This document shows positions 13,077 to 34,015 of a DNA stretch of 36,768 nucleotides, one piece after another. Position 1 is the first letter of the stretch; each line of letters opens with the position of its first letter. The notes beneath the pieces are model-generated. The model worked only from the letters and a program-made list of their open reading frames with translations. It had not been told where the DNA came from and ran no database searches. Origin of the DNA: Hyphomonadaceae bacterium (GTDB taxonomy: Bacteria; Pseudomonadota; Alphaproteobacteria; Caulobacterales; Maricaulaceae). Made by a program: the position numbers and the translations under genes. Location: assembly GCA_013001295.1 (NCBI GenBank), contig JABDMW010000026.1, positions 1-36,768 of the forward strand. The letters run 5' to 3'.

Positions 13077-13220
13077 TTTAATGTCCTAAGAAGTATTGTC
13101 GCGCGGCAAAAATCTTAACATTGCCGGAATTCAAGGCAAAGTCGATACGGGAATGTACTTATTTAACAGGCGGAATTTTCTACAGTGCAATGCTTCGGAT
13201 GAATAGTGCCTTGCACTGCT

Positions 13221-13236
13221 GATTACGTATTTATGC
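13221..13236 (+). promoter_or_regulatory. Candidate FixJ-type box (weakest of five)
   Basis: GATTACGTATTTATGC shares GATTACGTAT with the minus-strand sequence of the usp upstream box. It starts 93 bp upstream of the lipoprotein start. A CCTTGC sequence lies just before it at 13209-13214; a CCTTGC also flanks the terC and usp boxes, but on the other side. Confidence 0.35.
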
Positions 13237-13313
13237 TTATAGATTATCAACAACAACAACCTTATCTCGACTCTGCAGGCAGTGAAAGCCTTAGAAAATT
13301 TATGGAGATAATT

Positions 13314-13676
13314 TTGAAGAAACTTTTGATTATATCGACGACGGCAATCGCGTTATCGGCCTGTACCACAACAGGTAATGTTGAAAAGAACACTGCGATC
13401 GGTACTGCGGCCGGAGCTGCAGCGGGTGCAGTTATAGGAAACAATGTTGGCAAAGGCGACGCCAAAACCGGCGCCATTATCGGCGGTGTTGCCGGTGCTG
13501 TTGGTGGCGCTGTCGTCGGGCGTCAAAAAGATCAGACAATGGGCGAGGGCACTAAGTTGCGTAAACCTGCGTTTGGTCAACGGATGTATTATGATCAGGC
13601 GGCTGGCCGGTATTACTTCATTGATGAAGAGACCGGAAAAACCTACTGGCAGAACGGCGCTTTGCGGACGAATTAA
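13314..13676 (+). CDS. Small glycine-zipper lipoprotein
   Basis: The likely start is the TTG at 13314, six bases after GGAG. It gives a classic lipoprotein signal (MKKLLIISTTAIALSAC) with the lipidated Cys at residue 17 and a mature N-terminus CTTTGN. The open frame reaches upstream to 13206, but a start there would put about 36 unlikely residues before the signal peptide. Residues about 27-65 are two Gly/Ala-rich zipper helices (GTAAGAAAGAVIGNN and GAIIGGVAGAVGGAVVG), as in YMGG-like/17-kDa antigen-type envelope lipoproteins. The C-terminus is hydrophilic with aromatic residues (RMYYDQAAGRYYFIDEETG). It probably sits in the outer membrane; the molecular role is unknown. It is divergent from tamA and followed 66 bp later by another lipoprotein gene. 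Confidence 0.8.
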   Translation: MKKLLIISTTAIALSACTTTGNVEKNTAIGTAAGAAAGAVIGNNVGKGDAKTGAIIGGVAGAVGGAVVGRQKDQTMGEGTKLRKPAFGQRMYYDQAAGRYYFIDEETGKTYWQNGALRTN

Positions 13677-17004: not shown

Positions 17005-18045
17005 ATGTCATTTGAAATGCTCACCCCTGATACTGTTTACGCGCTAAAATGGTTCGGCATCTTTTTCTGCATTAGTCAGTCCGCTATGTTTTCCGGATTG
17101 AATCTAGCTTATTTCAGCGTTAGTCGGTTGCGGCTTGAAGTCGAAGCAGGAACGGGCAACAAACATGCTTCGCTTGTTCTGGCGATGCGAACGGACTCCA
17201 ACTTCCTGCTCACCACGATTCTTTGGGGTAATGTCGGGATCAATGTGCTTCTAACATTGTTGTCCAATTCAGTTATGGCGGGTGTAGGAGCTTTCCTGTT
17301 TTCGACAATCTTGATCACCTTATTCGGGGAGATTTTTCCACAGGCTTATTTTTCCCGCAAAGCTCTGACAGTCGGCGCTAGGCTCGCTCCGGTATTGAGA
17401 ATCTACCAGTTCATATTGTACCCGGTTGCAAAACCCATCGCTTTATTACTTGATTTTTGGCTTGGAAAGGAAGGAGTGGAATTCCTTCGCGAACGCGGGC
17501 TCAGAGAATTGGTTCGACAGCATATGGCCGCGGAAGAAACAGATCTTGGTCGTATCGAAGGACTCGGCGCATTAAATTTTTTATCTATCGACGATGTTCT
17601 GGCCTCCAAAGAGGGTGAACCGCTTGACCCATCCAGCATCATCTCTTTGCCATTCAAAGAAGGGGGTGCTCAGTTTCCCGGAGATGCCAGTTCGAAAGAT
17701 GGTTACTTCCTGCAACGGCTTCAGAAATCTGGAAAAAAATGGGCGGTCTTGACGGATATTGATGGCACACCTCAGCTTGCCGTGGATACCGATGCTTATT
17801 TACGCAGCGCATTGCTGGGTACCGGTTCATTCGATCCCGAAAAATATTGCCATCGGCCAGTGATCATTGAAGATTCTTCAGTAAGGCTTGGGCAAATTCT
17901 GCAGCGTTTTGAGGTACAAGCAGCGTATTCTGGTGACAATGTAATTGATCGTGATATCGTTCTATTATGGACAGATCAAAGGCGTGTTATAACCGGTGCC
18001 GATATTCTTGGTCGACTGCTAGCAGGGATCACTAGGGTCACCTGA
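17005..18045 (+). CDS. CNNM/CorC-like DUF21 membrane protein with weak CBS region
   Basis: A 346-residue protein. The N-terminal DUF21 domain (residues about 10-150) has four hydrophobic segments. Its motifs resemble the CNNM branch including animal CNNMs: MFSGLNLAYFSVSRLRLEVE, a GNVGINVLLTLL segment and FGEIFPQAYFSR. The cytoplasmic part (about 185-346) is where a CBS pair is expected, but the canonical sequence is poorly kept (recognisable bits are KKWAVLTDIDGTPQLAVD and RRVITGADILGRLL). CNNM/CorC proteins are linked to magnesium and other divalent cation transport. It is encoded in the same direction as the L,D-transpeptidase, with a short gap and a weak ribosome binding site. A role in metal efflux is inferred from family only. 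Confidence 0.8.
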   Translation: MSFEMLTPDTVYALKWFGIFFCISQSAMFSGLNLAYFSVSRLRLEVEAGTGNKHASLVLAMRTDSNFLLTTILWGNVGINVLLTLLSNSVMAGVGAFLFSTILITLFGEIFPQAYFSRKALTVGARLAPVLRIYQFILYPVAKPIALLLDFWLGKEGVEFLRERGLRELVRQHMAAEETDLGRIEGLGALNFLSIDDVLASKEGEPLDPSSIISLPFKEGGAQFPGDASSKDGYFLQRLQKSGKKWAVLTDIDGTPQLAVDTDAYLRSALLGTGSFDPEKYCHRPVIIEDSSVRLGQILQRFEVQAAYSGDNVIDRDIVLLWTDQRRVITGADILGRLLAGITRVT

Positions 18046-18256
18046 CTCATCACGAAATAGACGATATTAAATTGCTCATATTGAAGTTGTTAAAGATAAA
18101 GCAACGTATATCTTTTTCGTGTGTGATTTTGCATTAAACACGGAGATAAGTAACTGGCTAATTGGCGGTTAAAATTATGATTTTGGATGTATGTCACGGA
18201 ATAGTATTGTCTGTCCTGTCTGATTAAAATACATGGGTTTTTAAAGGAGAATAATC

Positions 18257-18490
18257 GTGGCCAATGTAAAAAAAATTATCGCCATTACTATCGGCGGACT
18301 GGCGGTTTTGTTTGCTTTGCAAAACACAGCTTCTGTACCCGTGTCATTTCTGCTTTGGGAAATAGAAGCTCCCAGAGCATTCGTCCTCTTACTGACATTT
18401 ACATTTGGGGTTGTCGCCGGGTTGTTGCTAGCACACGCCATGCAAAAAGATGCTGTGAGAAAAGCCAAGGCTAAAACAACCAAGGAATAA
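18257..18490 (+). CDS. LapA-domain (DUF1049) small inner-membrane protein
   Basis: A 77-residue protein starting at GTG, with an excellent ribosome binding site (AAAGGAGA, 6-nt spacer). Two transmembrane segments (about residues 7-21 and 38-60) flank the typical stretch FALQNTASVPVSFLLWEIEAP, followed by a basic tail (RKAKAKTTKE). This is the LapA architecture: in E. coli LapA works with LapB in controlling LpxC turnover and lipopolysaccharide assembly. No lapB is adjacent here, as is often the case outside enterobacteria. In the 211-bp upstream gap there are AACGTATAT and GATAAGTAAC sequences vaguely like the boxes found elsewhere in the window, too weak to list as sites. Confidence 0.82.
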   Translation: MANVKKIIAITIGGLAVLFALQNTASVPVSFLLWEIEAPRAFVLLLTFTFGVVAGLLLAHAMQKDAVRKAKAKTTKE

Positions 18491-18967
18491 AAATGTTTTT
18501 GGTGAATAATGCCGGAAGTGCGTTCGCGTCGCAAATTTAGGCAGGTCATTTAATTCCAATTCGATGTATTTATTTTAAATTGCGTCTCTTTTTGTAATTT
18601 GGTTAGAAGTACAATTCATATTTAAATCCCAGATAGACGATGCCGGCTCGCCGGCACCGTCACGCACTCCTAAATGATGTGGGGCAATTCGAAGTGCGGA
18701 GACCTGTCAATGATTCCTCGGTAGATCGGTAGGCTTACCGGTCTGCGCGATAACCATTGCCAGGCTCCCTATTCTATTTGGTTAAAATGAAAAGATATCA
18801 CAATTAGTATATATACTTAATCGAGCTCTTTTGCCTTGCACGCCATTGAGTTTCGCTTTTAGCTTGGCCGACTTTCGGTCCATTTGAAATTCCATTCTAC
18901 CTTAGCATATTAGCTAGATTTAAACCGGTTTATTTTTTACGCGGCGTTATATTCAGAGAGACGAAAC
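18491..18967. other. 477-bp intergenic region before terC
   Basis: I find no convincing reading frame here. It holds two hairpin-forming sequences without T tracts: TGCCGGC/GCCGGCA at 18641-18656 and GATCGGTA/TACCGGTC at 18724-18743. A palindromic regulatory box lies at 18802-18823. The large size, AT-rich right half and structure suggest a regulated promoter with a long leader. Confidence 0.6.
18802..18839 (-). promoter_or_regulatory. Candidate FixJ-type box and conserved 38-bp block upstream of terC
   Basis: The core 18802-18823 reads CGATTAAGTATATATAC followed by TAATT on the minus strand. Its centre GTATATATAC is a perfect 10-bp palindrome with near-symmetric ATTA/TAAT arms. The whole block to 18839, ending in CCTTGC, matches 20538-20575 at 32 of 38 positions with no gaps. 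The core ends 144 bp before the terC start. Confidence 0.6.
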
Positions 18968-19747
18968 ATGATTGAACTTTTTTCCCAGCCTGAAGCATGG
19001 GCAGCTCTTTTGGCATTGGTTACGCTTGAGGTCATCTTAGGTATTGATAACCTAATTTTTATTTCGATCGTAACGAATAAACTGCCTGAGCATCGGCGGC
19101 CGAGAGCGCGGCGTATTGGCATTGGACTTGCGCTCGTAATGCGACTTTTATTGCTAAGCACCATAGCCTGGATCGCGGGGTTAAATACGATCATTGTTGA
19201 TTTTGGAATCACAGGCCCAATTGGTACGAACGGGAGCCCCAGTTTCGAAACTTCATTTTCCTGGCGCGATATTATACTGATAGCGGGCGGAATATTTCTA
19301 ATTTGGAAAGCGACAACAGAAATACACCACAAAGTCGACCCAGGGCCTGCCAACACAGTATTTCAAGTGGTCAAAAATATCGGGTTTACAGCGGCGATCG
19401 TTCAAATCATTTTACTGGACCTCGTTTTTTCTATTGATAGCATCCTTACGGCAATAGGAATGACATCACATTTACCGGTCATGGTGATTGCCGTTATAAT
19501 AGCTGTCGCTGTTATGTTTTTGGCCGCAGGCCCGGTGTCCCGCTTTATCAACAATAACCCAAGTGTCGTGATGCTGGCCCTGGGATTCTTATTGATGATC
19601 GGAATTGTTTTGATAGCTGATGGTATGGGCCACCATATCCCAAAGGGTTATATCTATACCGCAATGGCATTTTCCATGTTTGTCGAGTATCTAAATATGT
19701 TGGCTCGAAAACGGCCAATCTTAGGCGATGGAAAAGAAATGATATAA
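18968..19747 (+). CDS. TerC family integral membrane protein
   Basis: A 259-residue polytopic protein with about seven hydrophobic helices. The two family motifs carry conserved acidic residues inside the membrane: Glu21/Asp27 in [13 protein letters not shown] and Asp151/Asp157 in [12 protein letters not shown]. TerC proteins were named for tellurite resistance; several members are now linked to manganese export and to metal loading at the membrane. It lacks the C-terminal CBS/CorC extension of longer relatives, so it is the short YceF/YgjT-like form. It is followed 110 bp later by a PsiE-like gene and preceded by a long upstream region with a FixJ-like box, suggesting a stress-regulated transcript. 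The start ATG follows GAGAGACGAAAC. Confidence 0.9.
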
Positions 19748-19857
19748 AAACGATATTAGCGAAATTGTAGAATAATGACTTTGCTCGTGTGGAACTTTCT
19801 GGCCAAACATTTGGTTTTCAGCATTCTATTTTCAAAAAAACAATAGTGAGAATTACC

Positions 19858-20313
19858 ATGTCTAACAACGAGAAATTGAAATCCTTGAGTTCCACTGATA
19901 AATTTTTAAGTGCGGCACATCGATTTGAGTTTGTTATCATAACAATACTATATTTTACGATTACAATCATAAGCGTACTTGCGATTACGCGTCTCGGTGC
20001 GGCGGTCTATGATAGAATTTTTGGGCCTTGGGACGATAACACAGGCCAGGGAATACAGATACTTTTTGGTATGGTAATGACGGTGCTCATATCTCTTGAG
20101 CTCGGAAACTCTATGCTTCGGAACCTCAAGAGACGAACAACTGTCATTCAAGCACAGGAGATCATTCTCATAGGCCTGATTGCCATTGTTCGAAAGATTA
20201 TGCTGGTCGATATCAACGTTGTGACGCCAACTTTAATCGCTTCGTTGGCTATTGCTACTATAACGCTTGCTGCAGCCTACTGGTTGACGAAGGAAGCGGC
20301 ACATAACCATTAG
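19858..20313 (+). CDS. PsiE-like (phosphate-starvation-inducible family) membrane protein
   Basis: A 151-residue protein from the ATG at 19858; the frame extends upstream to a GTG at 19789, giving 23 more residues of atypical sequence. Four hydrophobic helices are seen (about residues 24-45, 60-85, 98-115 and 121-142). Segments FGMVMTVLISLELGNSM and EIILIGLIAIVRKIMLVD match the PsiE (PF06146) pattern. E. coli PsiE is induced by phosphate starvation, and its biochemical function is unknown. The gene lies 110 bp after terC in the same direction and probably shares its promoter. The start choice is moderate because the ribosome binding site is poor. Confidence 0.75.
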   Translation: MSNNEKLKSLSSTDKFLSAAHRFEFVIITILYFTITIISVLAITRLGAAVYDRIFGPWDDNTGQGIQILFGMVMTVLISLELGNSMLRNLKRRTTVIQAQEIILIGLIAIVRKIMLVDINVVTPTLIASLAIATITLAAAYWLTKEAAHNH

Positions 20314-20759
20314 CGATGTCGGGCTTTGCTACTTATTGATAAACCTATTCTATCATTGGAAACAATAAACGGTGTCTACGTGCCGGCACTACTTCATATC
20401 CGAGATGAGCGATTTATGAGTCGAGATAAGAATAACGTGTATGCGAACGCTATTCGTTCGCCCGGTGGGCCACGTCGACCTAAGAAAAAACCTTGACCAA
20501 TACTTTCTCGAAAGCTGGGCAAAAAAGAGGAAACCCTAATTAGTATATATACGTAATCGGTCGGTTTTACCTTGCCTCAACTTTAATTATCGCGTCTTGT
20601 TTTCATAAACCGCTGCCTGCTTGCGCTCTATTAAACAGGGTTGAAAGTGTCTGATAAATTCAATCGACCGCCGAAACCTTTGATCTGCACGCTGAAAACG
20701 ATCCGCATTTTGACCAGCTGGAGATTGTATAAATGCAGTGAATTTTGTCGGAGTTTTCG
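20314..20759. other. 446-bp intergenic region before the usp gene
   Basis: No supported gene is present. It contains a perfect 7-bp hairpin (GCGAACG/CGTTCGC, 20443-20461) without a T tract and the second copy of the conserved 38-bp block (20538-20575). Together with the terC upstream region, it looks like a long regulated leader. Confidence 0.6.
20538..20575 (-). promoter_or_regulatory. Candidate FixJ-type box and conserved 38-bp block upstream of the usp gene
   Basis: On the minus strand the core 20538-20559 reads CGATTACGTATATATAC then TAATT, differing at one position from the terC box (A to C in TTAMGTAT). The downstream CCTTGC is at the same 16-bp distance in both copies. The core ends 200 bp before the usp start. 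Confidence 0.6.
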
Positions 20760-21593
20760 ATGATAAAAACCATACTTGTTTCGCTCAATAATATCGAATG
20801 TGTCAGGAGTTCAATGCGGGCTGCGGTCACATTGTCGCAGAGATATGACTGCCATATCATCGGACTTTTTGTGGTTCCATCTGTAACTTTTTATTCGGGG
20901 CCAATGGGACTCGGTGCGAGCGTAAAACCGATTAGCGCAGGCACGTATTTTGCTAAACGTGCCGAAATAGCCAAGCCTGCATTTGAAAAAATATTAAGTA
21001 AACACAAATTGCGTGGTGAGTGGAAACAGGTAGATTCGCATGGAAAGACAATTCCAGACACTATCACACAATATGGGCACGCTGCGGATTTGGTTATTAT
21101 CGGCCATCGGAATCCGGGAGGTGGGCACGTAGATGCAGATGTCGAAACTTCGGCCTATATTGTCAAGGCCGTCGGTCGGCCGGTCCTTGTCGTACCACAC
21201 TCGAACAGGAAAAAATTTGTCGTAAAAAGAGCTATACTTGGATGGGACGGCTCACGTGAAGCAAGTCGCGCTGCTTTTGATGCGATTCCACTGCTGCATG
21301 ACGTGCAGAAATTGACAGTAACCTGTGTCAATCCACGTTTAGAATCCGATGTATCAAATCAGGCCCCGGGTCAAAAAATTAGCGCCGCTATGAACTATCA
21401 CGCCATACCGACGGAGATCGATATTCTTAAAACGCACAATAAAATTGGGTTAGCCTTGGTTAAAAAAGCTTCCGCATCAGATCTCCTGATAATAGGGGCT
21501 TACGGACATTCTCGGTTGCGTGAAACTATTCTGGGCGGCGTCACTGAAACAGTCCTTAATAATCTCAGCGGGCCCGTTCTGTTGTCGAATTAA
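20760..21593 (+). CDS. Tandem-domain universal stress protein (UspA family)
   Basis: A 277-residue protein using the ATG at 20760, 6 nt after GGAG; a TTG five codons upstream is the alternative. It has two Usp domains in tandem, residues about 1-150 and 155-277. The second keeps the ATP-binding pattern GAYGHSRLRETILGGVTETVL followed by NLSGPVLLSN; in the first the equivalent loop (GHRNPGGGHVDADVETSAYI) is divergent, so only one site may bind nucleotide. Such proteins are cytosolic and are induced by starvation, low oxygen or envelope stress. It lies 61 bp before mgtE in the same direction. A box shared with the terC upstream region suggests common regulation. Confidence 0.9.
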   Translation: MIKTILVSLNNIECVRSSMRAAVTLSQRYDCHIIGLFVVPSVTFYSGPMGLGASVKPISAGTYFAKRAEIAKPAFEKILSKHKLRGEWKQVDSHGKTIPDTITQYGHAADLVIIGHRNPGGGHVDADVETSAYIVKAVGRPVLVVPHSNRKKFVVKRAILGWDGSREASRAAFDAIPLLHDVQKLTVTCVNPRLESDVSNQAPGQKISAAMNYHAIPTEIDILKTHNKIGLALVKKASASDLLIIGAYGHSRLRETILGGVTETVLNNLSGPVLLSN

Positions 21594-21654
21594 AGAAATG
21601 CAAACCGGCTATTGGCTCTAAAGTTATAAGTGGAGCCAAAGAAAAGAGGAGATT

Positions 21655-23031
21655 ATGACGACACTCATTTTGGATCCTGAACAAGAGGAAGCTTTACTAA
21701 TTGGGAAAATAAGAGATTCACTTGAAACTGGACACAACGATCTCCTTTTATCCGCAATTACCGAAGTTTCGGATAATGAACTTCGTCACGTCTTTTTTCG
21801 ACTTGAGGTAGAGGAGCAAGATAATCTTCTAAATAAATTGACTCCAGATGTGTCCGCAAGGTTGCTCGGTGATTTGCCGGATCAGGAAGTCGCCAAATTT
21901 ATGGAACGTCTTGAGCCAACTTCGGCTGCGACTGCGATCAGTGCTTTGTCGTCGTCTGATCAGGCCGATATCATCGACGAGTTGGGAGACGATACCGCCC
22001 AAGAAGTTCTTTTGAGTTTGTCTACCGAACAAGCCTCTGACATTGAGACAATTTCACGATATAAAGATGACACGGCCGGACGCCTAATGAATCCATCACC
22101 GGTCGTCTTCCATGTCACTGAAACCGTTGGGGACGTTCTCAAGCGCATCGCAGATGATGAGGAGGCCCTGGCTTCTGTCGGCGGTGAGTATCCCTGTATT
22201 GTTGATGATGATGGAAATTATGTCGGCGTGTTGTCTCTGAGAAGCCTGTTGACCGTGAAGCGTTCTATTCAGCTTAAGGCTATCACCAAGGCTTATGAAT
22301 CAATCTCGGACGCAGCAACTTTAGATGATATTCAAGATTATTTTGACCGAAATGAGTATGCGGGCGCGCCAGTCGTAAATACGGAAAATCGGCTAATGGG
22401 CATTCTTCTAGAAGAAACGTTTGCCGAAACTCTGTCATTCAAACAGCAGGACGACGTACTCAAAATTAGTGGAGTCCTGGGCGATGAATTGCGCTCAATG
22501 CCGCTTATTTATCGTTCGCGAAAACGCCTGGCCTGGCTTTCTGCAAATATTGTTCTGAATATCATCGCCGCCAGTGTGATCTCTGCTTACGAAGAAACCC
22601 TGACCGCCGTAATAGCTCTTGCGATATTTTTACCCATGGTTTCAGACATGAGCGGATGCTCCGGTAACCAGGCCGTTGCAGTTTCGATGCGGGAAATCTC
22701 GCTCGGTTTGGCGCGACCGACCGATGCTTTTAGAGTCTGGATGAAGGAAATTTCAGTCGGCGTTATCAACGGTATAATTTTGGGTATCATTATCGGATTT
22801 GTCGCATTTATTTGGAAAAGTTCACCGGCACTTGGCCTGGTTATTGGTGCCGCGCTTGCAATTAATACAATGATCGCTGTTTCAATTGGCGGCGTTGTCC
22901 CGTTGTTGTTAAAGCGTTTTAACGTCGATCCGGCGGTTGCATCTGGTCCGTTACTTACAACAATTACCGATATGGCTGGGTTTTTTCTGGTGTTAGGTCT
23001 AGCGACAATGGCTTTGCCTTATCTGATCTGA
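21655..23031 (+). CDS. mgtE: Magnesium transporter MgtE
   Basis: A 458-residue protein of standard MgtE length. Order: N-terminal superhelical domain (about residues 20-130), two CBS domains (about 135-255; LMNPSPVVFHVTETVGDVLK, PCIVDDDGNYVGVLSLRSL, GAPVVNTENRLMGIL), a linker helix, then five transmembrane helices (about 285-458). The pore-region signature is present as MVSDMSGCSGNQAVAVSMRE, where the family usually has a GGNAGTQ-like sequence. MgtE is a Mg2+-gated Mg2+ channel in the inner membrane. The ATG follows a strong GAGGAG. Just upstream, TTGGCTC (21612-21618) can pair with GAGCCAA (21633-21639), but the 61-bp gap is too short for an M-box riboswitch. It probably forms an operon with the usp gene. 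Confidence 0.92.
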   Translation: MTTLILDPEQEEALLIGKIRDSLETGHNDLLLSAITEVSDNELRHVFFRLEVEEQDNLLNKLTPDVSARLLGDLPDQEVAKFMERLEPTSAATAISALSSSDQADIIDELGDDTAQEVLLSLSTEQASDIETISRYKDDTAGRLMNPSPVVFHVTETVGDVLKRIADDEEALASVGGEYPCIVDDDGNYVGVLSLRSLLTVKRSIQLKAITKAYESISDAATLDDIQDYFDRNEYAGAPVVNTENRLMGILLEETFAETLSFKQQDDVLKISGVLGDELRSMPLIYRSRKRLAWLSANIVLNIIAASVISAYEETLTAVIALAIFLPMVSDMSGCSGNQAVAVSMREISLGLARPTDAFRVWMKEISVGVINGIILGIIIGFVAFIWKSSPALGLVIGAALAINTMIAVSIGGVVPLLLKRFNVDPAVASGPLLTTITDMAGFFLVLGLATMALPYLI

Positions 23032-23222
23032 GGAGCATGCCGTTATTCTTAAGCATCCTAAGAAGTTTGATGCCGAAATCACAAAGGTAGCGGAACATAG
23101 ATTGCCAATGCGCGCGCCAATTACATATGAACGCAAAAGTCTTATAAAATAAATTCAACCTATAGAATGTTTTTGAGCCTTTTAATGGTTGCGTCATTAA
23201 TCTTCGCTCGACCGGAACCAGA

Positions 23223-23438
23223 TTAGATTTTTAAATCCACGATACGGACGCGCTGAAGCCATCTGAGAGCTGATGCGGTTCGTCGAGGGACGAAACCGAG
23301 CTGATCGCTTATGTCGTCGACCAAAATACCCTTCTCTCCTGCGCGAGACACGCAGAGATAAATCGACAAGCGATCCGGATCTGAAAGAGCGGACAATATC
23401 TCGACGCTGTCAATCGTCTCCTTGCTTGGAGCTAACAT
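23223..23438 (-). CDS. Small ArsR-like winged-helix protein, probably truncated by an in-frame stop
   Basis: The ATG at 23438 has a strong ribosome binding site (AGAGGA, 7-nt spacer) and gives 71 residues. Sequence VEILSALSDPDRLSIYLCVS followed by ILVDDISDQLGFVPRRTASA and LRWLQRVRIVDLKI matches the helical core of ArsR-type regulators up to the recognition helix. The frame then meets TAA. Read through that codon, it continues for 20 residues (SGSGRAKINDATIKRLKNIL) to a TAG at 23160-23162. That tail looks like the missing wing and final helix of an ArsR protein. It may therefore be a recently inactivated gene, a shortened but functional one, or a sequencing artefact. No metal-binding cysteine pair is seen. 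It follows the lone receiver gene by 78 bp on the same strand. Confidence 0.6.
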   Translation of the reverse strand: MLAPSKETIDSVEILSALSDPDRLSIYLCVSRAGEKGILVDDISDQLGFVPRRTASALRWLQRVRIVDLKI

Positions 23439-23516
23439 TTTGGTTTCCTCTGTATTTGGTAAATCTCGTTTTCCACCGAATTTTTGCAACATATCCGCGA
23501 ATTTCAAGTACAGCGA

Positions 23517-23900
23517 TTACATTGCTATTTCCGTTTGCATGACAATTTCAGTTATTTTTGCTTCGAGGATTTGAGGGTCCACGGGTTTCGCAATAACTGC
23601 GAGAGCCGCTGATTTTTCGGCCGCCAACATAAGATCATTCCGATACGTTCCGGTTATAACAATTGTAGGCCCAAATCGGTTTTGCTCTTGGAGAATTTCC
23701 ATTGCAGCAACACCGTTTAATCCATGTAATTCCAAGTCTATGACCAAACAGGATGGTGTAAGAAGCTCCGATTGGAGATATTCTTCTGCGTTCTCAAAAG
23801 AGTAAACGGAGTACCCGGACACTTCAAAAAAAGTGTGCAGAGAATTTCTAACGCCGTCATCATCGTCGACAATAACGATAGTCTCGGAAAGTCCACTCAT
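23517..23900 (-). CDS. Stand-alone receiver-domain response regulator
   Basis: A 127-residue single receiver domain. The acidic pocket (IVIVDDDDGVRNS), phosphoacceptor Asp55 (CLVIDLELHG), Thr83 (IVITGTY) and Lys105 (VIAKPVDP) are all in place, so it should be phosphorylatable. It has no output domain, as in CheY-, DivK- or Spo0F-like proteins and FixJ-associated lone receivers. The start at 23900 follows ACAGG; the frame extends 12 codons upstream, which is less likely. It lies between the ArsR-like gene and the FixJ/kinase pair, all on the minus strand, so it may act as a phosphate sink or relay for that kinase. Its own upstream region holds a FixJ-like box, suggesting feedback. Confidence 0.88.
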   Translation of the reverse strand: MSGLSETIVIVDDDDGVRNSLHTFFEVSGYSVYSFENAEEYLQSELLTPSCLVIDLELHGLNGVAAMEILQEQNRFGPTIVITGTYRNDLMLAAEKSAALAVIAKPVDPQILEAKITEIVMQTEIAM

Positions 23901-23973
23901 AAAAAACCTGTAAATCAAATGTGATAGTAATGACAATCACTTACTAACCACACATAATTCCGTTGAAATAGAT

Positions 23974-23990
23974 GGGGAATATACGTAACG
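23974..23990 (-). promoter_or_regulatory. Candidate FixJ-type box upstream of the lone receiver gene
   Basis: The minus strand reads CGTTACGTATATTCCCC, matching 15 of 17 bases of the box at 26323-26339. It lies 73-90 bp upstream of the receiver start, in the 101-bp gap after the FixJ-like gene, in the same orientation as the gene. Confidence 0.6.
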
Positions 23991-24001
23991 GGGCGTAAAT
24001 T

Positions 24002-24613
24002 TCAGATAATTTTTGCTGCGATCGCCATTCGAATGAGTTCGGCGAAACTTTTAGCACCGGTTCTTTTCATGATTCTTGATCGGTGGACTTCGACTGTTCG
24101 TTGGCTGATCCCCAATTCATAGGCGACGATTTTGTTCGGTTGACCCTCTGCTAATTTCTTGACGACATCTATTTCGCGTTTTGAAAGGAGTTTCATGGCT
24201 TCGCAGTCAATATCTGTATTACGTGAAGCGTCTTGCAATGCCTGTTCAATCTTGTTTTGACCACTTTTAATTGAGTCAATAAGTCTATCCGGGTCGATCG
24301 GTTTCTCTATAAAATCCGTTGCGCCCATTTGCATGGCTTTAACGGCGATTGGAATGTCGCCGAAGCCCGTAATCATGATGATAGACACAGGGGTTTTTGA
24401 CTCCGATAAAATCTGCGAAATTAAATCCAGACCATCTGTATTCGGCAGATTTTTATCAAGCAAAAGACAAAAGGGAGCTTCTCCGCTAAACCATTCCATT
24501 AATTCGGTACCGGACGTAAAAGTCTTCCACGCATAGCCATAAGCCTGCATTAGTGCGGCCAGGCTTTCACGGATCGCGATATCATCATCTACTATGATAA
24601 CGGGGCAGGACAT
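24002..24613 (-). CDS. FixJ-family response regulator (receiver + LuxR-type HTH)
   Basis: A 203-residue two-domain regulator. The receiver (residues 1-120) has Asp9-Asp11, phosphoacceptor Asp53 (LLLDKNLPNTDG), Thr82 and Lys104 (FIEKPIDP). The LuxR/NarL-type DNA-binding domain (about 140-203) reads LLSKREIDVVKKLAEGQPNK then ELGISQRTVEVHRSRIMKRT. The order, the length and the GATDFIEKPID motif are those of FixJ/TodT/StyR-type regulators. In rhizobia FixJ is phosphorylated by the oxygen sensor FixL and activates genes under low oxygen. Its start codon overlaps the kinase stop by one base (TAATG), so the pair is translationally coupled. Its targets in this window are probably the TTAMGTAT boxes; this is inference. 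Confidence 0.9.
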   Translation of the reverse strand: MSCPVIIVDDDIAIRESLAALMQAYGYAWKTFTSGTELMEWFSGEAPFCLLLDKNLPNTDGLDLISQILSESKTPVSIIMITGFGDIPIAVKAMQMGATDFIEKPIDPDRLIDSIKSGQNKIEQALQDASRNTDIDCEAMKLLSKREIDVVKKLAEGQPNKIVAYELGISQRTVEVHRSRIMKRTGAKSFAELIRMAIAAKII

Positions 24614-26100
24614 TACGGAATCCCAATCATATTGTCACGCGATAGCGGCAAGGAAAAAGTGAAAACCGCACCTCCCTCCGCGTGGTTACTCGCTGCGATC
24701 TGTCCATTATGTGCAGTTAATATTCGTCGACATATTGATAGGCCAAGCCCCATGCCATTAGACTTTGTTGAAGCGAATGGTTTAAACAAATTCTGTTCAA
24801 GTGTTTCGTCCAGGCCGGGCCCAGAATCTTTTATACTAATGGCAACAGAACCGTTTTCGACACGTGTTGAAATATTGATACGCCTTGGGTGCGTTTCAGC
24901 CATTGCGTCAACCGCGTTGCGCACCAGATTGTGCACAACTTGCTGGATTTGGATTTTATCTACAAATACGAATACATCTTCTTCATGGAGGTAGAAGAAA
25001 GTATTGATGCTCAAATCGCCGGTATCCATTAGCGCAAACAATGTCGCCTCTTCGACAAGAGCGTTGATTTCCTCACGCGAGCGTTCACTTGTATCCTGAC
25101 GCACCATCCTTTGCATGTTGCGAATAATGTCGCCGGCGCGGCTGACTTGCGCGGCAGCGCTATCCATCATCTGAATTTCTTTTCCACTGTATCCAGAATT
25201 GGCAAGGGATTTTGTCGAGGCTCTAATAAAAGTTAGGGCAGCAGATAAAGGTTGTTTGATTTCGTGCGCTATTGTCGACGCCAATTCACCCAACATGCCT
25301 GTTTGATCTAATTCTGAAACATTCGTCGTGTTTGTGATCAGTTCCCGCACGTTTCGCTCTCGGTTCGATAAATCATGAACAAAAACGACGATTTGTATTT
25401 TGTCTTCCAGCTTGACATTCCCGAGTACAACTTCGCAGGGGAATTTCTCTGAACCCGTTTTAACACCATCAAAATAATTTGTTACGGTGGTTTCAGAATG
25501 ATCTTTATATGTTGAATCTGATGCAAAAAGTCGGACATCCTCAATGTCGAGATCGGGAATTAAGTCAGTAATGAACGATTCCGACTGATTTGAGACCTTG
25601 AATAGTTTTTTTGCCGCACGGCTCATTTGATCCACGCTGCCATCGGCATTCGCTATTATGATTGCACTTTGAGAATAAGAAAAAATCGTTGCAGCAACGA
25701 TGTTGTTTCGTTCGGCTGTGACTTCTTGTGTGGAGATCAATCGACCCAAATAGAATACACGAGGGTTTTGAGCGCGAGCTGTCCGCACGCCGGACCACTC
25801 AATAGCTGCGATCGCCGCGCTCGGCACAACTAGGTCAATTCGGAACCGGTGCGGCGAGTGGGACAGTGCAAGGGAGTGCATGTCTCTCGTAATCAAAGGT
25901 ATTCCGACGTCAGGATTCTCAAGTTCCCAAATTTTCTTCCCGATACATGAGACCGTGTTATTAGTCTCCAAAAGTCCACGCGCAAATGCATTGGCAAAGT
26001 AAATCGTCCCGTCCATATTTGCGGCGACCACCGGTTCTGTCAGCAGTTCAAAAGCATCTGGCTCGATTGAGAATAAGGATGATTCTAGCTCGGGTTTCAT
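24613..26100 (-). CDS. Soluble PAS-domain sensor histidine kinase (FixL-like)
   Basis: A 495-residue kinase with no transmembrane segment, so it senses an internal signal. Order: PAS-like region (about residues 14-120, LLTEPVVAANMDGTIYFANA), second PAS (about 135-250, SQSAIIIANADGSVDQMSRA), HisKA with phospho-acceptor His279 (IAHEIKQPLSAALTFIRAS) and HATPase_c with N box VVHNLVRNAVDAMAE, G1 ISIKDSGPGLDE and the F/G2 region FKPFASTKSNGMGLGLSICR. The second PAS resembles FixL in its tail (FPCEVVLGNVK and FVHDLSNRERNVREL), but by eye I find no histidine aligned with the FixL haem ligand, so the ligand may be another cofactor or none. It is cotranscribed with the FixJ-like gene. Confidence 0.9.
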   Translation of the reverse strand: MKPELESSLFSIEPDAFELLTEPVVAANMDGTIYFANAFARGLLETNNTVSCIGKKIWELENPDVGIPLITRDMHSLALSHSPHRFRIDLVVPSAAIAAIEWSGVRTARAQNPRVFYLGRLISTQEVTAERNNIVAATIFSYSQSAIIIANADGSVDQMSRAAKKLFKVSNQSESFITDLIPDLDIEDVRLFASDSTYKDHSETTVTNYFDGVKTGSEKFPCEVVLGNVKLEDKIQIVVFVHDLSNRERNVRELITNTTNVSELDQTGMLGELASTIAHEIKQPLSAALTFIRASTKSLANSGYSGKEIQMMDSAAAQVSRAGDIIRNMQRMVRQDTSERSREEINALVEEATLFALMDTGDLSINTFFYLHEEDVFVFVDKIQIQQVVHNLVRNAVDAMAETHPRRINISTRVENGSVAISIKDSGPGLDETLEQNLFKPFASTKSNGMGLGLSICRRILTAHNGQIAASNHAEGGAVFTFSLPLSRDNMIGIP

Positions 26101-26151
26101 GATGTCAATTTGAAGGAATGAATGATAAAATCAATACCTAGATCAAAATGA

Positions 26152-26163
26152 GTGTAGCTACAC
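26152..26163. promoter_or_regulatory. 12-bp palindrome upstream of the kinase-regulator operon
   Basis: GTGTAGCTACAC is a perfect dyad 52 bp upstream of the kinase start. It could be an operator for this operon, perhaps for autoregulation or another regulator. Only symmetry and position support it. Confidence 0.4.
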
Positions 26164-26322
26164 ACTATGGTGAAGATGGCCAGAAAAGGATTTATTCGAC
26201 AAAGCAAAAAAATAATCATTTTGCACACTCTGAGGATTGATCAAACCTGGTAGACAGACCTATTTCGGCAAAAATTGATGTTTCGATTAATGAAGCAAAA
26301 CCAAACCGGCGGACGGCTTTGT

Positions 26323-26339
26323 CGTTAAGTATATTCCCT
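26323..26339 (+). promoter_or_regulatory. Candidate FixJ-type box upstream of the mechanosensitive channel gene
   Basis: CGTTAAGTATATTCCCT matches the minus-strand box of the lone receiver gene at 15 of 17 positions and has the same orientation relative to its gene. It ends 111 bp before the channel start. An inverted repeat follows 11 bp later. Confidence 0.6.
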
Positions 26340-26450
26340 TACTGGCTCAGAAGGTATGCTTACCTTTATCGTTCGGTTCAATGTTGAAATGTCAAACGGG
26401 ATCTGAAACCCGGGTGGTAGCATTACTTTATACTATTGGACCGGGGAAAA

Positions 26451-29400
26451 ATGGAAATGGTACGGAATATTCACCTATTTGCGATTTTGATTTTTATCAT
26501 TGGATCGATTTGCTTATCACCTTATTCTGTTTTTGCACAATCCCTGAACACAGACTTTTTGACTCAACAGCAAATCAGTGAAAAAATTTCTGATATAAAA
26601 AATAACGTCGAATTAAACTCTGAAGAGAAGGAAAGAATACTCGCACTTTATGAAACGGCGCAATTGCGACGCCAAGCCTACGAGACAAGGGTCGCGGAAA
26701 TTTCGGAATTAAAATCGCAGAGGGAAACGCTGGATGCTGATTTGACGTCCGTTATTGATCAACAATCAAGTTTGCGAACACAAATCGAAAATAAGGTCAC
26801 TGCGCCCTTGTTTTCGAATCTGCCCGAAAATGAGCGTTTAAGATCTTTAAAACAAAGTCTTGAGGAATCACGGAGCAAGTTATCAAAGTTGAATTTGAGA
26901 GCTATCTCCCTCGAGAAAAAGGCGGTTTCATCGCAGCAGACTTTAAAGGCAGAGCGTTCGGTTCTGAAGTCAATAAACGACGAACTCGAAATAAATTTGG
27001 CAGCGCTAAAACCGATTATTCAGACCGCAACGCGTGATACGTTAGTGGTTCGTCAATTCGCGAAAGAAAAAGACATTGAAGCGCTGGAACTGGAAACGAG
27101 CCTGTTGCCAAAACTCATTGCTTTAAATTCTGCTCAAATTGAACACGAGAAGGCGATCGCCGATTGGTTGGAGCTGCAAATAACGCCAATTGAACTCGCA
27201 ATTAGCCAAAGCGTTTTGTCGGATGTTCGCCGGCGTGTTCAAATAGCCGAACAACAATCCGAACAGCTTAAAAACGAACACCCTTTATTGGCAGAGTATT
27301 CTGCAGAGAATACCGATCTGCTCCATGCACTTTTTGAAATCGTGAAATCAATCGAAAATTTACCGAAAGAAATCCGGAGACTTAATCTGCAATTGGAGTC
27401 GGTCCAAAACGAGAATAGCGTAACCACTCAAATACTGGCCTCCGGGGTAAAGACAAAAGACATTGGGGCATTATTGGCAACTGTTCAGCAAAATCTGCCA
27501 TCTCGGTTTGATTTGAAAGATCAATTGAAATTACAAAGAAAGCAGTTGGTAAAAGCCGAGTTGAATAGAGTTTTATGGCAAGAAAGAACGCGAAAATTCA
27601 ATGTCGACCCGGTGACTTTGGATAATTATTTTGAAAATTGGAAGGTGCGGCATGTCAATGCTACTGACCTCACTGAATCCCAGAAACAAAAATTGCGACC
27701 GTTGCGAGATGCACGCAAAAAAATCGTTACCGATCTCACAAGCGCCTCGATCGAAAACCTGGAACTTCTTGCTTCAATGGTCGATTCTACCGAAACGCTT
27801 ATGGTGCAAACTACGTCGCTATCAAATGAGTTGCGGCAAAGTCTGATATGGCTTCCCAGCAACAATGCATTTTCGTCCAATTGGCAAGATGCAGGTCAGG
27901 CCGGACTACAATGGTATTTCTCTCCTAGGAATTGGATAATTGCCGCAAAAGATTTATGGCGCGGCGCAATTTCCCATTTCTTACGCACGGGTCTATTGAT
28001 CGGGCTAATAATTTTATTTTGGTTTCGTCGCTCCCGTATCAATATCAACCCCTTACTATCGCTAGATCAAAATAGGGCCGGTATTTCAAAGTTATTTATC
28101 GGTTCTTTTGCGGCGTTTCTAAGAAGCATTGAGCTGTCGGTACTTGTCCCCGCTTTTCTCATAGCCATTGGTCTCACGTTAAAATCTGGAGCGACAACGA
28201 ATTTTTCAAATGCGCTTTCCCATACCCTTATCATACTTGCTGGGCTAATTTTCGTATTGCGGTTTATGAGGGTTTCTTGTCGTGATGGGGCTTTATTTGA
28301 TAAAAACATTGATATCGGAAGACCTCTTCGCACTCAAATTAGAGCGAGCTTGATATGGTTTACGCCTTTGCAGATTTCATCTGTTTTCGTATTTCGACTA
28401 TCATCTTATAGTTCCAACACAATTGTTCATGACACTTTCGGGCTTATCGCATTTCTAATTTCTGCGGCTGGTTTGACTGTTATTGCTTGGAAAATTGTCC
28501 GAAGCGTTAATTCGAATAAAAGTGAACAAACCAGTTTTGTTCGCAAAATTTTCCCATTATTTTTGATTGGAACGCCAGTGGTTCTCGGAATAATCGCGTT
28601 GATCGGATATTTTCGTACAGCCTTTGAATTGCAGGGAAAGTTTTTCCTGACCATACTCATACTTCTGGTTGGCTATATTTTGATGCGTTCCGTTCATCAG
28701 GTGCTCCACCTGATCGGGGACCTCAAAAGAGAGATTGACTCCGTTAATGAAATTTCAAGCGCCAGAATTTCTGAAATTGCTCAAGGAAAAACTACGACTA
28801 ATATAACGGAAAAGAATGGCTTAAGGACACATTCCGAAAAAACAGATGCAATACAATTTCGAAATCTGATCAATTCATTTGTTTTCTTTGGAATTGCATT
28901 TGGATTATGGATCGTTTGGCAATCATTTATCCCGGCCCTCGGCGTTTTAGACGACGTAACTTTGATGACACAACAAATCGGTAGTGGTGAAAACCTTTTA
29001 CTAAAATCCATAACGCTTCAGGATATTTTCATAGCGGGTTTGATCCTCATATTGACAACAGTGGCAGCCCGTAACTTACCAGGTTTTTTAGAACTTTTAG
29101 TGTTACGTAATACTAATCTCGATGCCGGGGCGAAATATGCGGCTGTAACAATTATTGGATACGCTATTGTTGCAGTCGGATCTGTTGTTGCATTGAGCAA
29201 AGCTGGCTTACAATGGTCGCAATTACAATGGTTTGTCGCCGCGCTGTCATTGGGTATAGGATTCGGCATGCAAGAAATTGTCGCCAACTTTATTTCGGGA
29301 ATAATTTTGCTTTTTGAACGCCCGGTTCGAATTGGTGATTATGTGACAATTGGCGCCCAGAGCGGAACGGTAAGCCGCATTCAAATTCGTGCCGTCACAT

Positions 29401-29792
29401 TGCAAGATCTAGACCGGCGCGAGACGGTTATTCCCAATAAAAAATTGATAACAGATGACGTAACCAATTGGTCGCTCTCGGACTCGGTTGTCCGTCTCAG
29501 TATTACTGTAGGCATAGCGTATGGATCAGATACAACATTGGCCAGAAAACTGATGTTACAAGCGTTGCAAGAAAATGAAAATGTCTTGAATGATCCAGTT
29601 CCGGCTGTCCTTTTTTCCGGCTTCGGAGACAGTTCTCTTAACTTCGAAATGCGTGGGTTTATTTTTGGTTTTGAAAATCTAGCTAAAATCACGAGCGAAC
29701 TGCATTTAGCAGTCGATGCAGCTTTCCGAGAACACAAAGTCGAAATTCCGTTCCCTCAACGTGTTTTGCATCATGCAGATAGCAAGACATAA
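26451..29792 (+). CDS. Large MscK/KefA-type mechanosensitive channel (MscS superfamily)
   Basis: About 1,113 residues from the ATG at 26451, which follows GGGG; an ATG two codons later and a TTG at 26436 are alternatives. It has a signal peptide (HLFAILIFIIGSICLSPYSV, then FAQ), a long Gln/Glu/Leu/Lys-rich periplasmic region with coiled-coil character (about residues 40-460), several transmembrane helices (about 500-880) and a C-terminal MscS core. The core has the pore-lining helix with small residues (LSLGIGFGMQEIVANFISG), the beta-domain (LFERPVRIGDYVTIGAQSGT, then IPNKKLI) and the C-terminal alpha/beta domain. E. coli MscK and MscM share this layout. Such channels release solutes on osmotic downshock; MscK gating is also K+-dependent. 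The next gene starts 18 bp later. Confidence 0.9.
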   Translation: MEMVRNIHLFAILIFIIGSICLSPYSVFAQSLNTDFLTQQQISEKISDIKNNVELNSEEKERILALYETAQLRRQAYETRVAEISELKSQRETLDADLTSVIDQQSSLRTQIENKVTAPLFSNLPENERLRSLKQSLEESRSKLSKLNLRAISLEKKAVSSQQTLKAERSVLKSINDELEINLAALKPIIQTATRDTLVVRQFAKEKDIEALELETSLLPKLIALNSAQIEHEKAIADWLELQITPIELAISQSVLSDVRRRVQIAEQQSEQLKNEHPLLAEYSAENTDLLHALFEIVKSIENLPKEIRRLNLQLESVQNENSVTTQILASGVKTKDIGALLATVQQNLPSRFDLKDQLKLQRKQLVKAELNRVLWQERTRKFNVDPVTLDNYFENWKVRHVNATDLTESQKQKLRPLRDARKKIVTDLTSASIENLELLASMVDSTETLMVQTTSLSNELRQSLIWLPSNNAFSSNWQDAGQAGLQWYFSPRNWIIAAKDLWRGAISHFLRTGLLIGLIILFWFRRSRININPLLSLDQNRAGISKLFIGSFAAFLRSIELSVLVPAFLIAIGLTLKSGATTNFSNALSHTLIILAGLIFVLRFMRVSCRDGALFDKNIDIGRPLRTQIRASLIWFTPLQISSVFVFRLSSYSSNTIVHDTFGLIAFLISAAGLTVIAWKIVRSVNSNKSEQTSFVRKIFPLFLIGTPVVLGIIALIGYFRTAFELQGKFFLTILILLVGYILMRSVHQVLHLIGDLKREIDSVNEISSARISEIAQGKTTTNITEKNGLRTHSEKTDAIQFRNLINSFVFFGIAFGLWIVWQSFIPALGVLDDVTLMTQQIGSGENLLLKSITLQDIFIAGLILILTTVAARNLPGFLELLVLRNTNLDAGAKYAAVTIIGYAIVAVGSVVALSKAGLQWSQLQWFVAALSLGIGFGMQEIVANFISGIILLFERPVRIGDYVTIGAQSGTVSRIQIRAVTLQDLDRRETVIPNKKLITDDVTNWSLSDSVVRLSITVGIAYGSDTTLARKLMLQALQENENVLNDPVPAVLFSGFGDSSLNFEMRGFIFGFENLAKITSELHLAVDAAFREHKVEIPFPQRVLHHADSKT

Positions 29793-29810
29793 TTGAATTT
29801 GGAGTTGGCA

Positions 29811-30566
29811 ATGCCGGGTGATTTTAAAATTTATTTATTCGAAAGGGGCACGGCCGCGCCGAAAGAATTAGACGATTTTCCCAATCAGATTGAAGCGAAT
29901 GATTTCCTTTGGATCAATGCATCGAAGGTCAATATCGAGGTCGAGCAATATTTCTACGAAAATGAAACTATCGACATAAATGCCGTAGCTTTTTTGTTTC
30001 AGGAAAAGAAGATTTCGGAACTCGATTTTGGCGATGATTATTTTACAATTGCGACCAGCGGGTATCATTCAACTCCCGATTATTTTTCAATAAAAGAGTA
30101 TAGATTCAGGATTTTCGTGAACGAGGAACACGTGGTCATGCTGAATGACATTGGTTTTATGGGTTTAGAGGACATGAATATTGTAATGACGAAAGATCGT
30201 TCTTTGAAGTCGACCAGCAGTTTATTTGCCTGGTTATTAGAAATAATCGTTCGAAATCAGAGGCTCCAAATCAGTCACATAGTTAACAAATATGACACTC
30301 TTCTTAATCAATCGGCCAAGTTGGAAAACCGATTTCAAGGGTATGAGTTTGAAGAACTCGAAAATGAAAATAAGAAAACTCTAGCAATCTTGCGGCAACT
30401 CAATCAGGATTCGCAGAGTATATTGAGTGCTAAGTATAAATGGGTAGACCCTGAAAGCGCGCACCTGATTGCGAACTCTGTCGCTCGATTAACCAAGATA
30501 GAAGAAAATTTTGCACCAAAAATGGCTAAGAAAAAATCTAAATTTTTCGGGCGATTTATTCATTGA
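29811..30566 (+). CDS. CorA-like cytosolic protein without transmembrane helices
   Basis: A 251-residue protein; the ATG at 29811 follows GGAG by 6 nt and is preferred over the in-frame TTG at 29793. An alpha/beta N-terminal half (NDFLWINASKVNIEVEQYF, KEYRFRIFVNEEHVVMLNDI, NIVMTKD) is followed by long helices (about residues 135-240: LFAWLLEIIVRNQRLQISHI, then VNKYDTLLNQSAKLENRFQG). This order resembles the cytoplasmic funnel of CorA/ZntB cation transporters, including the helix with a fixed-spacing series of polar residues. The protein ends in a basic tail (KKKSKFFGRFIH) with no membrane helices and no GMN motif, so it cannot be a channel itself. It directly follows the mechanosensitive channel gene and may regulate it. 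The family call rests on my pattern reading only. Confidence 0.55.
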   Translation: MPGDFKIYLFERGTAAPKELDDFPNQIEANDFLWINASKVNIEVEQYFYENETIDINAVAFLFQEKKISELDFGDDYFTIATSGYHSTPDYFSIKEYRFRIFVNEEHVVMLNDIGFMGLEDMNIVMTKDRSLKSTSSLFAWLLEIIVRNQRLQISHIVNKYDTLLNQSAKLENRFQGYEFEELENENKKTLAILRQLNQDSQSILSAKYKWVDPESAHLIANSVARLTKIEENFAPKMAKKKSKFFGRFIH

Positions 30567-30899: not shown

Positions 30900-30975
<76 letters not shown>

Positions 30976-33004: not shown

Positions 33005-34015
33005 TCACAAGTCCCATTTTTGGCGATGGAAGTTCCAGGCGGTTTTGATGATGTTTTCCAAATTCGAGTGTTGAGGCATAAATTCCAACAATTCTTTTGC
33101 GCGGGTGCCGTCGGCGTAGAGCTGGGTCAGATCACCGTCTCGCCTCGGTGCCGCATCATAAGGTACAGGTTTCCCTGTAACCCGTTCAATTGTTTGAAGA
33201 ATTTCCAGATTGCTGATGCCAACGCCCGTGCCGATATTGACCTCGGCATTGCTAAGGCCATTGTCGAATGCCTGTTCCGATTTGATATGGGCAAGGGCGA
33301 TATCATTGACGTGGATATAGTCGCGGATGCAGGTGCCGTCCGGCGTGCCGTAATCGGTTCCAAATATTTTCATGCGAGGGCGCCGGCCTGCCGCCGCTTC
33401 CAGAGCAATCGGTATGAGATGGGTTTCCGGATTATGCTCTTCTCCGATTTCACCGCTGTCATCTGCCCCTGAGGCATTGAAATAGCGTAGGGTGACATAA
33501 TTCAGGCCATAGGCTTTGTGGAAGCTTTGGATCATGCCTTCGATGGCGAGTTTGGTTTTACCATACACGCTAAACGGATTTTGCGGTTCTGTTTCCAGCA
33601 GCGGCATATTGGTCGTTTCACCATATGTTGCGCAAGTGGAGGAAAAGATCAGTCGATCCGCGTCAGTCTCCCGCATGGCCATCAACAGATTGAGGGCACC
33701 GGTGACATTGTTATCATAAAATTCTGCAGGCTGTTTTTCGCCGATTCCGACTTCAATCGAACTTGCTAAGTGTATGACAGTTTTAACATTTTTGTGTTTT
33801 TGAAAGGCCGCATGTGTCGCTTTGCGATCCCGTAAATCAACATCGACATACTGTCCCCATTTGACCGCATGTTTGTGCCCGGCCGAAAAATTATCAAATG
33901 TAATTGGGGTGCCGCTATTGTCGTCGATCATTTTACACACATGGCTACCGATATATCCGCCGCCGCCTACAACGATGAATTCGCGCCCTTGTAAATTGTA
34001 AATAGACTTGGTCAT
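33005..34015 (-). CDS. galE: UDP-glucose 4-epimerase GalE
   Basis: A 336-residue extended short-chain dehydrogenase, the usual GalE length. The NAD-binding GxxGxxG motif is at 17-23 (VVGGGGYIGSH). The catalytic Tyr151 and Lys155 are in SVYGKTKLAIEG, with Thr127 (SSTCATYG) at the position of Ser124 in the E. coli enzyme. Typical sequences such as NNVTGALNLL, TLRYFNASGAD and DGTCIRDYIHVNDIA are present. It interconverts UDP-glucose and UDP-galactose for surface polysaccharide or galactose use. Its ATG overlaps the end of the AGCS symporter gene (ATGA), so it is translated from that transcript. No other sugar-nucleotide gene is nearby. A related epimerase acting on other UDP-sugars is possible. 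Confidence 0.92.
   Translation of the reverse strand: MTKSIYNLQGREFIVVGGGGYIGSHVCKMIDDNSGTPITFDNFSAGHKHAVKWGQYVDVDLRDRKATHAAFQKHKNVKTVIHLASSIEVGIGEKQPAEFYDNNVTGALNLLMAMRETDADRLIFSSTCATYGETTNMPLLETEPQNPFSVYGKTKLAIEGMIQSFHKAYGLNYVTLRYFNASGADDSGEIGEEHNPETHLIPIALEAAAGRRPRMKIFGTDYGTPDGTCIRDYIHVNDIALAHIKSEQAFDNGLSNAEVNIGTGVGISNLEILQTIERVTGKPVPYDAAPRRDGDLTQLYADGTRAKELLEFMPQHSNLENIIKTAWNFHRQKWDL

Follow-up and report, generated by a model that had tools for sequence, protein, structure and literature searches.

A FixLJ-like pair with an altered heme motif and nearby FixJ-type sites: a candidate direct regulon of stress, ion and channel genes in a Hyphomonadaceae bacterium

What might a FixL-FixJ pair control when sites resembling FixJ operators stand directly before stress, ion and channel genes? 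This question is raised by a 36,768-nucleotide stretch of Hyphomonadaceae bacterium DNA (contig JABDMW010000026.1; "the window" hereafter means this whole stretch), in which a FixJ-like response regulator and a FixL-like kinase are encoded among genes for a TerC family protein, a universal stress protein (Usp), a lone receiver and a mechanosensitive channel. A first-pass annotation had pointed to four boxes with the core TTAMGTAT before these genes and had proposed that the FixJ homologue controls them, together with PsiE-like, MgtE and CorA-like proteins. Sequence comparisons lead us to read the locus as a second FixLJ-derived two-component system of this genome, a rewired variant with a direct local regulon, to which we assign a probability of roughly 65%. 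If so, it offers a small, direct candidate regulon open to testing. The pair and the sites are as follows.

24002..24613, minus strand: FixJ-like response regulator; receiver and LuxR-type helix-turn-helix domains (Pfam); best solved structure 5xso (FixJ)
24613..26100, minus strand: FixL-like kinase; fold model PAS-PAS-HisKA-HATPase; heme His/Arg columns occupied by L190 and N207
18802-18823, no strand assigned: terC box; contains a dyad (18804-18819); terC starts about 157 bp from the box centre
20538-20559, no strand assigned: usp box; contains a dyad (20540-20555); usp starts about 213 bp from the box centre
23972..23997, no strand assigned: receiver box; TACGTATATTCCCCAT (minus strand, 23972-23987) overlapping TACGTAACGGGGCGTA (plus strand, 23982-23997)
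26323-26341, plus strand: mscS box, flanked by the divergently oriented genes fixL and mscS; site TAAGTATATTCCCTTA (26326-26341)
13146-13161, minus strand: FixJ-type site TAAGTACATTCCCGTA, CCC-type, between tamA (minus strand) and a glycine-zipper gene (plus strand)
13224-13239, plus strand: FixJ-type dyad TACGTATTTATGCTTA; given a gene start at 13314, it lies upstream of the glycine-zipper gene
23928-23943, minus strand: second, weaker site preceding the receiver gene, TAAGTGATTGTCATTA; 44 bp from the receiver box; scores 10.2 to 10.9

All four boxes described earlier are present where they had been placed, and the likenesses reported among them were found again: the terC and usp 22-mers are identical but for 1 base and belong to a 55-nucleotide stretch that is 75% alike between both loci, and the receiver and mscS 17-mers agree at 15/17 positions. 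The 8-base core alone is weak evidence and near chance, the earlier estimate of about two chance occurrences being correct (5 seen in the window against 1.77 expected, a count reached in 4 of 100 shuffles of the window). The fifth of these cores (13223-13230) and the CCC-type site at 13146-13161, that is, the two sites of the tamA/glycine-zipper region, had been overlooked, as had the apparent loss of the heme-ligand motif, the absence of a fixK-like gene and a block of low guanine-plus-cytosine (GC) content. The terC and usp boxes are palindromes, each one mismatch away from the dyad TAMGTA-N4-TACKTA, while those of the receiver and mscS have CCC as part of their second half-site (in the register 23982-23997 the receiver box is a dyad with 2 mismatches). 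This dyad consensus, which was fixed after viewing the relatives' sites and the window boxes and is not blind, occurs 7 times in the window at up to 2 mismatches, against 1.36 expected, and none of 100 shuffles reached 7. Six of the seven lie outside coding sequence and the seventh, at 30431, inside the CorA-like gene. The non-coding mask was drawn from open reading frames (ORFs) of at least 90 codons with 60 nucleotides cut from each ORF start; the sites at 13224 and 23928 are non-coding only through this trim, as the longest ORFs (GTG 13206 and TTG 23936) would contain them.

Site matrices to which the window contributed nothing recovered these sites. The first consisted of 9 sites: three rhizobial fixK-type promoters, two sites in the same-genus genome G009, one in G016, and the promoters of Crp/FNR genes of G014, G026 and contig C15 of the own genome. 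Its five best window matches were 26326, 13146, 13224, 20540 and 18804, all intergenic by the mask. The second consisted of 26 FixJ-type sites outside the window, 17 of them chosen by the first matrix from loci of the order, and was symmetrised; the same five sites lead, 23928 comes sixth, and the six best matches (mscS, 13146, 13224, usp, terC and 23928) are all non-coding, the sixth match of the oriented version being genic. With both matrices the mscS site scored highest in the window and 13146 second, and 13224 scored 14.0 to 15.5. At a score of at least 12, the symmetrised 26-site matrix found 5 sites in the 5187 intergenic bases of the window and 0 genic ones, against 2 in 52,582 intergenic bases plus 4 genic ones in twenty 20-kb stretches of the own genome (Poisson P = 2e-6 for the difference in site density; 8e-4 at the upper background rate). 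None of 2000 symmetry-keeping column shuffles gave 5 strong intergenic sites (mean 0.25, largest 3), and in 2 of 2000 column-shuffled matrices the top five were all intergenic.

The part of PMC4999443 available to us places the S. meliloti FixJ site TAAGTAATTTCCCTTA ahead of fixK and reports imperfect palindromes of 18 bp preceding fixK in Rhizobiales and Caulobacterales. We found TAAGTAATTTCCCTTA exactly in both S. meliloti pSymA records examined. The mscS box is like it at 14/16 positions and the 13146 site differs from it by 3 mismatches; at up to 3 mismatches the 16-mer has three matches in the window, one of them inside a gene (16552), against 0.24 expected, and 0 of 100 shuffles reached 3. 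In the whole genome, the same search gave 14 matches against 36 for the reversed control, without enrichment, and most of the other matches with loci at hand fall inside ORFs. That the boxes resemble FixJ-class operators is supported by these comparisons; the other half of the earlier claim, binding by the FixJ encoded beside them, goes further than the likeness does.

Across the 3.49-Mb genome, the dyad is rare and concentrated in the window, without overall enrichment. At up to 1 mismatch it occurs at 6 places (reversed control, 41), three of them in the window (13224, 18804 and 20540) and the others in the Crp/FNR (fixK-like) promoter of C15, at C48:2113 between two ORFs, and at C40:136140 at an ORF end. 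The pattern TAMGTAHHNHYMCBNA, shaped partly on window sites, occurs 10 times, 4 of them in the window (reversed control, 13). Two further counts were not used as proof: the core TTAMGTAT (74 matches against 219 for the reversed control) and WATATACKTAAYNR, which was built from the boxes (5 exact matches, 4 in the window). Two FixJ-type sites of the own genome outside long ORFs, G000:C23:11197-11212 and G000:C48:2113-2128, are possible extra targets.

The same class of site accompanies FixLJ loci elsewhere in the order, where our search gave a match in 61 of 398 genomes, the own genome included. Of 20 FixLJ loci picked from other genomes, mainly high in the list of matches, 18 had a best site of at least 13, and in 11 the observed score was reached by none of 20 shuffles. 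All 10 genes adjoining such sites that were picked by size and place proved to be Crp/FNR proteins; the matrix picks out sites beside Crp/FNR genes at the FixLJ loci of the order. BLAST labels place a lone receiver next to FixJ in 9 of the 20 loci and a Usp gene within 12 of the 20 stretches. In G009, sites occur ahead of the kinase gene, in the interval from FixJ to the receiver, and immediately past the receiver; the same locus (L063:26-4574; FixL-FixJ-receiver) has a further FixJ-type site before an isochorismatase-like gene. In the neighbourhoods of 43 of 80 loci with FixJ homologues (L107-L149), TerC-family and Usp genes also lie near some of these homologues, with TerC identities of 22-24%. 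None of 13 other TerC loci had a site of at least 12, and these comprised two paralogues from the own genome (73% and 36% identical); the closer paralogue, at G000:C20:645-1403, lies on a 6.4-kb contig.

The window FixJ combines its receiver and LuxR-type domains with a phospho-acceptor Asp, as in FixJ response regulators, and its linked promoters carry FixJ-type sites by the matrices and by the genome-wide dyad. In the helix that we take to be the recognition helix (ISQRTVEVHRSRIM in the window protein, ISPRTVEVHRANVM in S. meliloti FixJ and ISIRTVETHRARIL in C15 FixJ), 10/14 residues are common to the window and S. meliloti proteins, a likeness that allows the same DNA code without proving it. 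The kinase has HisKA and HATPase domains by Pfam, with conserved residues as in the receiver, and PAS matches below the Pfam cut-off; its fold model shows a PAS-PAS topology (mean predicted local distance difference test, pLDDT, 69). Its best NCBIfam model is FixL, at 207.6 bits under a cut-off of 850, and C15 FixL is also under it (385.6). In keeping with the cytoplasmic signal proposed earlier, no stretch of the protein is strongly hydrophobic (largest 19-residue mean 1.43, vs 2.45 in S. meliloti FixL). The columns that we take to hold the heme-ligand His and the conserved Arg of FixL carry these two residues in all 11 aligned relatives; in the window kinase they carry Leu190 and Asn207. The window kinase appears to have lost the FixL heme-binding motif; if it has, its signal is probably not heme-bound oxygen. 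The motif is likewise missing from the G001 and G009 kinases, so heme loss may have occurred more than once; in the PAS domain of the G009 kinase, a CHHSHSDG...ECPIY motif is found where the heme motif would be. No Crp/FNR gene was present among the 26 window ORFs scanned.

The genes around the pair, with the tRNA gene beside them, are the following.

13314..13676, plus strand: putative target, encoding a glycine-zipper lipoprotein; matches Pfam glycine-zipper families in a scan of the longer ORF 13206-13676
18968..19747, plus strand: TerC family membrane protein, putative target; Pfam TerC, 154 bits
19858..20313, plus strand: PsiE family membrane protein, possible terC co-transcript; Pfam PsiE, 71.9 bits
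20760..21593, plus strand: universal stress protein, putative target; Pfam Usp, 54 bits
21655..23031, plus strand: MgtE magnesium transporter, possible usp co-transcript; Pfam MgtE, MgtE_N and CBS
23517..23900, minus strand: lone receiver, candidate FixT-like feedback protein; Pfam Response_reg, 62 bits; one Cys
26451..29792, plus strand: MscS/MscK-type mechanosensitive channel, putative target; Pfam
29793..30566, plus strand: CorA-like domain protein; Pfam CorA, 18.7 bits, under the cut-off of 27
30900..30975, minus strand: tRNA-Asn, near the right edge of the low-GC block; ARAGORN and Rfam

The proposed regulon holds as an arrangement, with sites clustered around the FixLJ pair and standing before terC, usp, the receiver gene and mscS; control by this FixJ is what the arrangement suggests rather than establishes. 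PsiE and MgtE had been counted as members, and their genes do lie behind terC and usp, co-transcription being a further step: we infer the operon links terC-psiE, usp-mgtE and mscS-corA-like from spacing. On its other side, the mscS box lies about 234 bp from the start of fixL, and fixLJ could therefore be autoregulated from it. The start of the glycine-zipper gene at 13314 is deduced from GGAG and a lipobox-like SACTTTG. MscS has 27-33% identity in near-full-length family matches and 33% to the own C12 copy. The CorA-like protein, which had been paired with the channel in the proposed regulon, matches the front part of the CorA profile and, because it falls below the Pfam cut-off and has no hydrophobic helix (largest hydropathy 1.12), it is unlikely to transport on its own, and no membrane ORF was seen following its gene. 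After the receiver gene lies a small ORF (23223-23507, minus strand) with a weak HTH_20 match below the cut-off.

The genes from TerC to CorA-like have a GC content of 38-47%, against 50.9% (standard deviation 3.1) in 241 own-genome ORFs of at least 200 codons. This low-GC block (17005-30566) adjoins the tRNA-Asn gene, which suggests an acquired island. Acquisition is likely from these features; mobility is only suggested, because the 26 window ORFs scanned include no integrase and no 16-nucleotide piece of the tRNA-Asn recurs as an attachment repeat in the window or the own-genome stretches scanned.

Taken as a rewired FixLJ system, the locus would work as follows. The kinase, apparently cytoplasmic and with two PAS domains, would respond to a signal other than heme-bound oxygen and phosphorylate the adjacent FixJ-like regulator, which would bind FixJ-type dyads, either TAMGTA-N4-TACKTA or the variant with a CCC second half. 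Once bound, it would activate terC(-psiE), usp(-mgtE), mscS(-corA-like), the lone receiver gene and the tamA/glycine-zipper region, and possibly fixLJ itself through the mscS box. With no FixK relay at the locus, the regulator would act directly on effector genes, and the lone receiver would damp the kinase in the manner of FixT. The sensor seems to have changed its signal while the regulator kept its DNA code, and a familiar switch may serve a new job. More tentatively, and with somewhat less than even odds in our judgement, a heme-less, FixK-less FixLJ copy carried on an acquired block by tRNA-Asn may have become a one-step switch for envelope, metal and turgor homeostasis. Were this true, an operator class shared with the resident heme-type FixLJ would let oxygen and membrane stress converge on the same promoters.

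Several observations weigh against a rewired local system: (i) the window FixJ scores 188.5 bits with its best NCBIfam model, NF006900, under the cut-off of 255 (as does C15 FixJ, at 200 bits); (ii) the heme region of the kinase aligns ambiguously, the His column being Val in one alignment and Leu in another, a His occurs further along this region, and the fold model is poor in the heme loop (pLDDT below 50 at 194-204); (iii) the receiver box is poor by matrix (7.5 with the 9-site matrix; 6.6 symmetrised and 10.2 oriented with the 26-site matrix), its score being equalled by 18 to 58 sites in the 400 kb of background; (iv) order loci L275 and L282 are without a site (2/20), and that of L276 lies inside a gene, 4.5 kb from FixJ; and (v) PsiE and TamA were matched in 1 of 14 genus genomes, the own one only. 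Conservation of the boxes in relatives, one of the checks proposed earlier, is answered in part: it holds for the site class at FixLJ loci of the order, while PsiE and TamA, as neighbours of individual boxes, are without a match in the 13 other genus genomes.

The alternative that survives best, though we consider it unlikely, is that the sites do act as FixJ operators, but chiefly for the heme-type FixLJ of C15, the block being a direct oxygen-response branch in which the local pair controls few genes or none. C15 FixL retains the heme His and Arg columns, a Crp/FNR gene lies behind that pair with the same dyad class in its promoter, and C15 FixJ, which shares 10/14 residues of the recognition helix with the window FixJ, could bind the window sites. 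However, three of the six genome-wide dyads stand beside the window pair, within 1% of the genome, the C15 module has a Crp/FNR relay of its own, and cross-recognition and local control are compatible with each other. Far less probable is an origin of the boxes by chance, as AT-rich or promoter-like words in a block that is itself AT-rich. Besides the near-chance frequency of the 8-base core, such a view can draw on the genome-wide pattern counts, which do not exceed the reversed controls, so that only the clustering stands out, and on local base composition: with a matrix scored against it, 2 window sites reach a score of 17 (mean over 40 shuffles, 0.05), 2 reach 14 (0.35) and 3 reach 12 (0.95), which leaves the lower-scoring sites within the shuffle range. 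Yet matrices without window sites still recover the window sites, and the own-genome intergenic background, column shuffles and sequence shuffles all yield far fewer. That the block answers to another NarL/LuxR-type regulator, or to a FixK-like protein at FNR boxes, is slightly less credible still, for although the FixJ query has 24 matches at E <=0.001 in the own genome, implying many receiver proteins, FNR boxes (TTGAT-N4-ATCAA, up to 2 mismatches) are not enriched (37 seen vs 32.7 expected) and the site class accompanies FixLJ loci in the order.

The rewired FixLJ reading can be set beside three known systems. With the FixL-FixJ-FixK oxygen cascade of Sinorhizobium, Bradyrhizobium and Caulobacter, the locus shares the kinase/regulator gene order, the receiver-helix-turn-helix architecture, a similar recognition helix and the operator class; unlike that cascade, it has an altered heme-ligand motif, no Crp/FNR gene among the ORFs scanned, and sites directly before stress, ion and channel genes. 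FixT is a single-domain receiver that inhibits FixL, and the 4-Cys motif of Caulobacter FixT is absent from other FixT proteins (PMC7078487, in the part available), so the single Cys of the window receiver does not exclude FixT. The window receiver is likewise single-domain and encoded directly after fixJ, with a site at the locus that is weak by matrix; before S. meliloti fixT, no site was found within 4 mismatches of the 16-mer TAAGTAATTTCCCTTA, a difference from the window receiver. In the Burkholderia lxa locus and the M. tuberculosis DosR regulon, Usp genes are grouped under low-oxygen regulators, and for lxa a link to FixLJ has been proposed, with control running via a FixK-like Crp protein and low oxygen (PMC6127331, as far as the sections available to us go). 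Usp genes are common to these systems and the window, which differs in its altered heme motif, in the lack of a Crp/FNR gene in the scan and in its ion and envelope partners. A literature search in one library on FixJ with stress proteins, channels, TerC, heme-free FixL and FixJ regulons returned no such arrangement in titles or the beginnings of abstracts.

Away from the FixLJ block, a large protein with repeated DUF7507 and DUF11 domains is encoded at 15-3170, and a 26-nucleotide direct repeat, 88% alike, occurs near the right end of the window (33916-33941 and 36667-36692).

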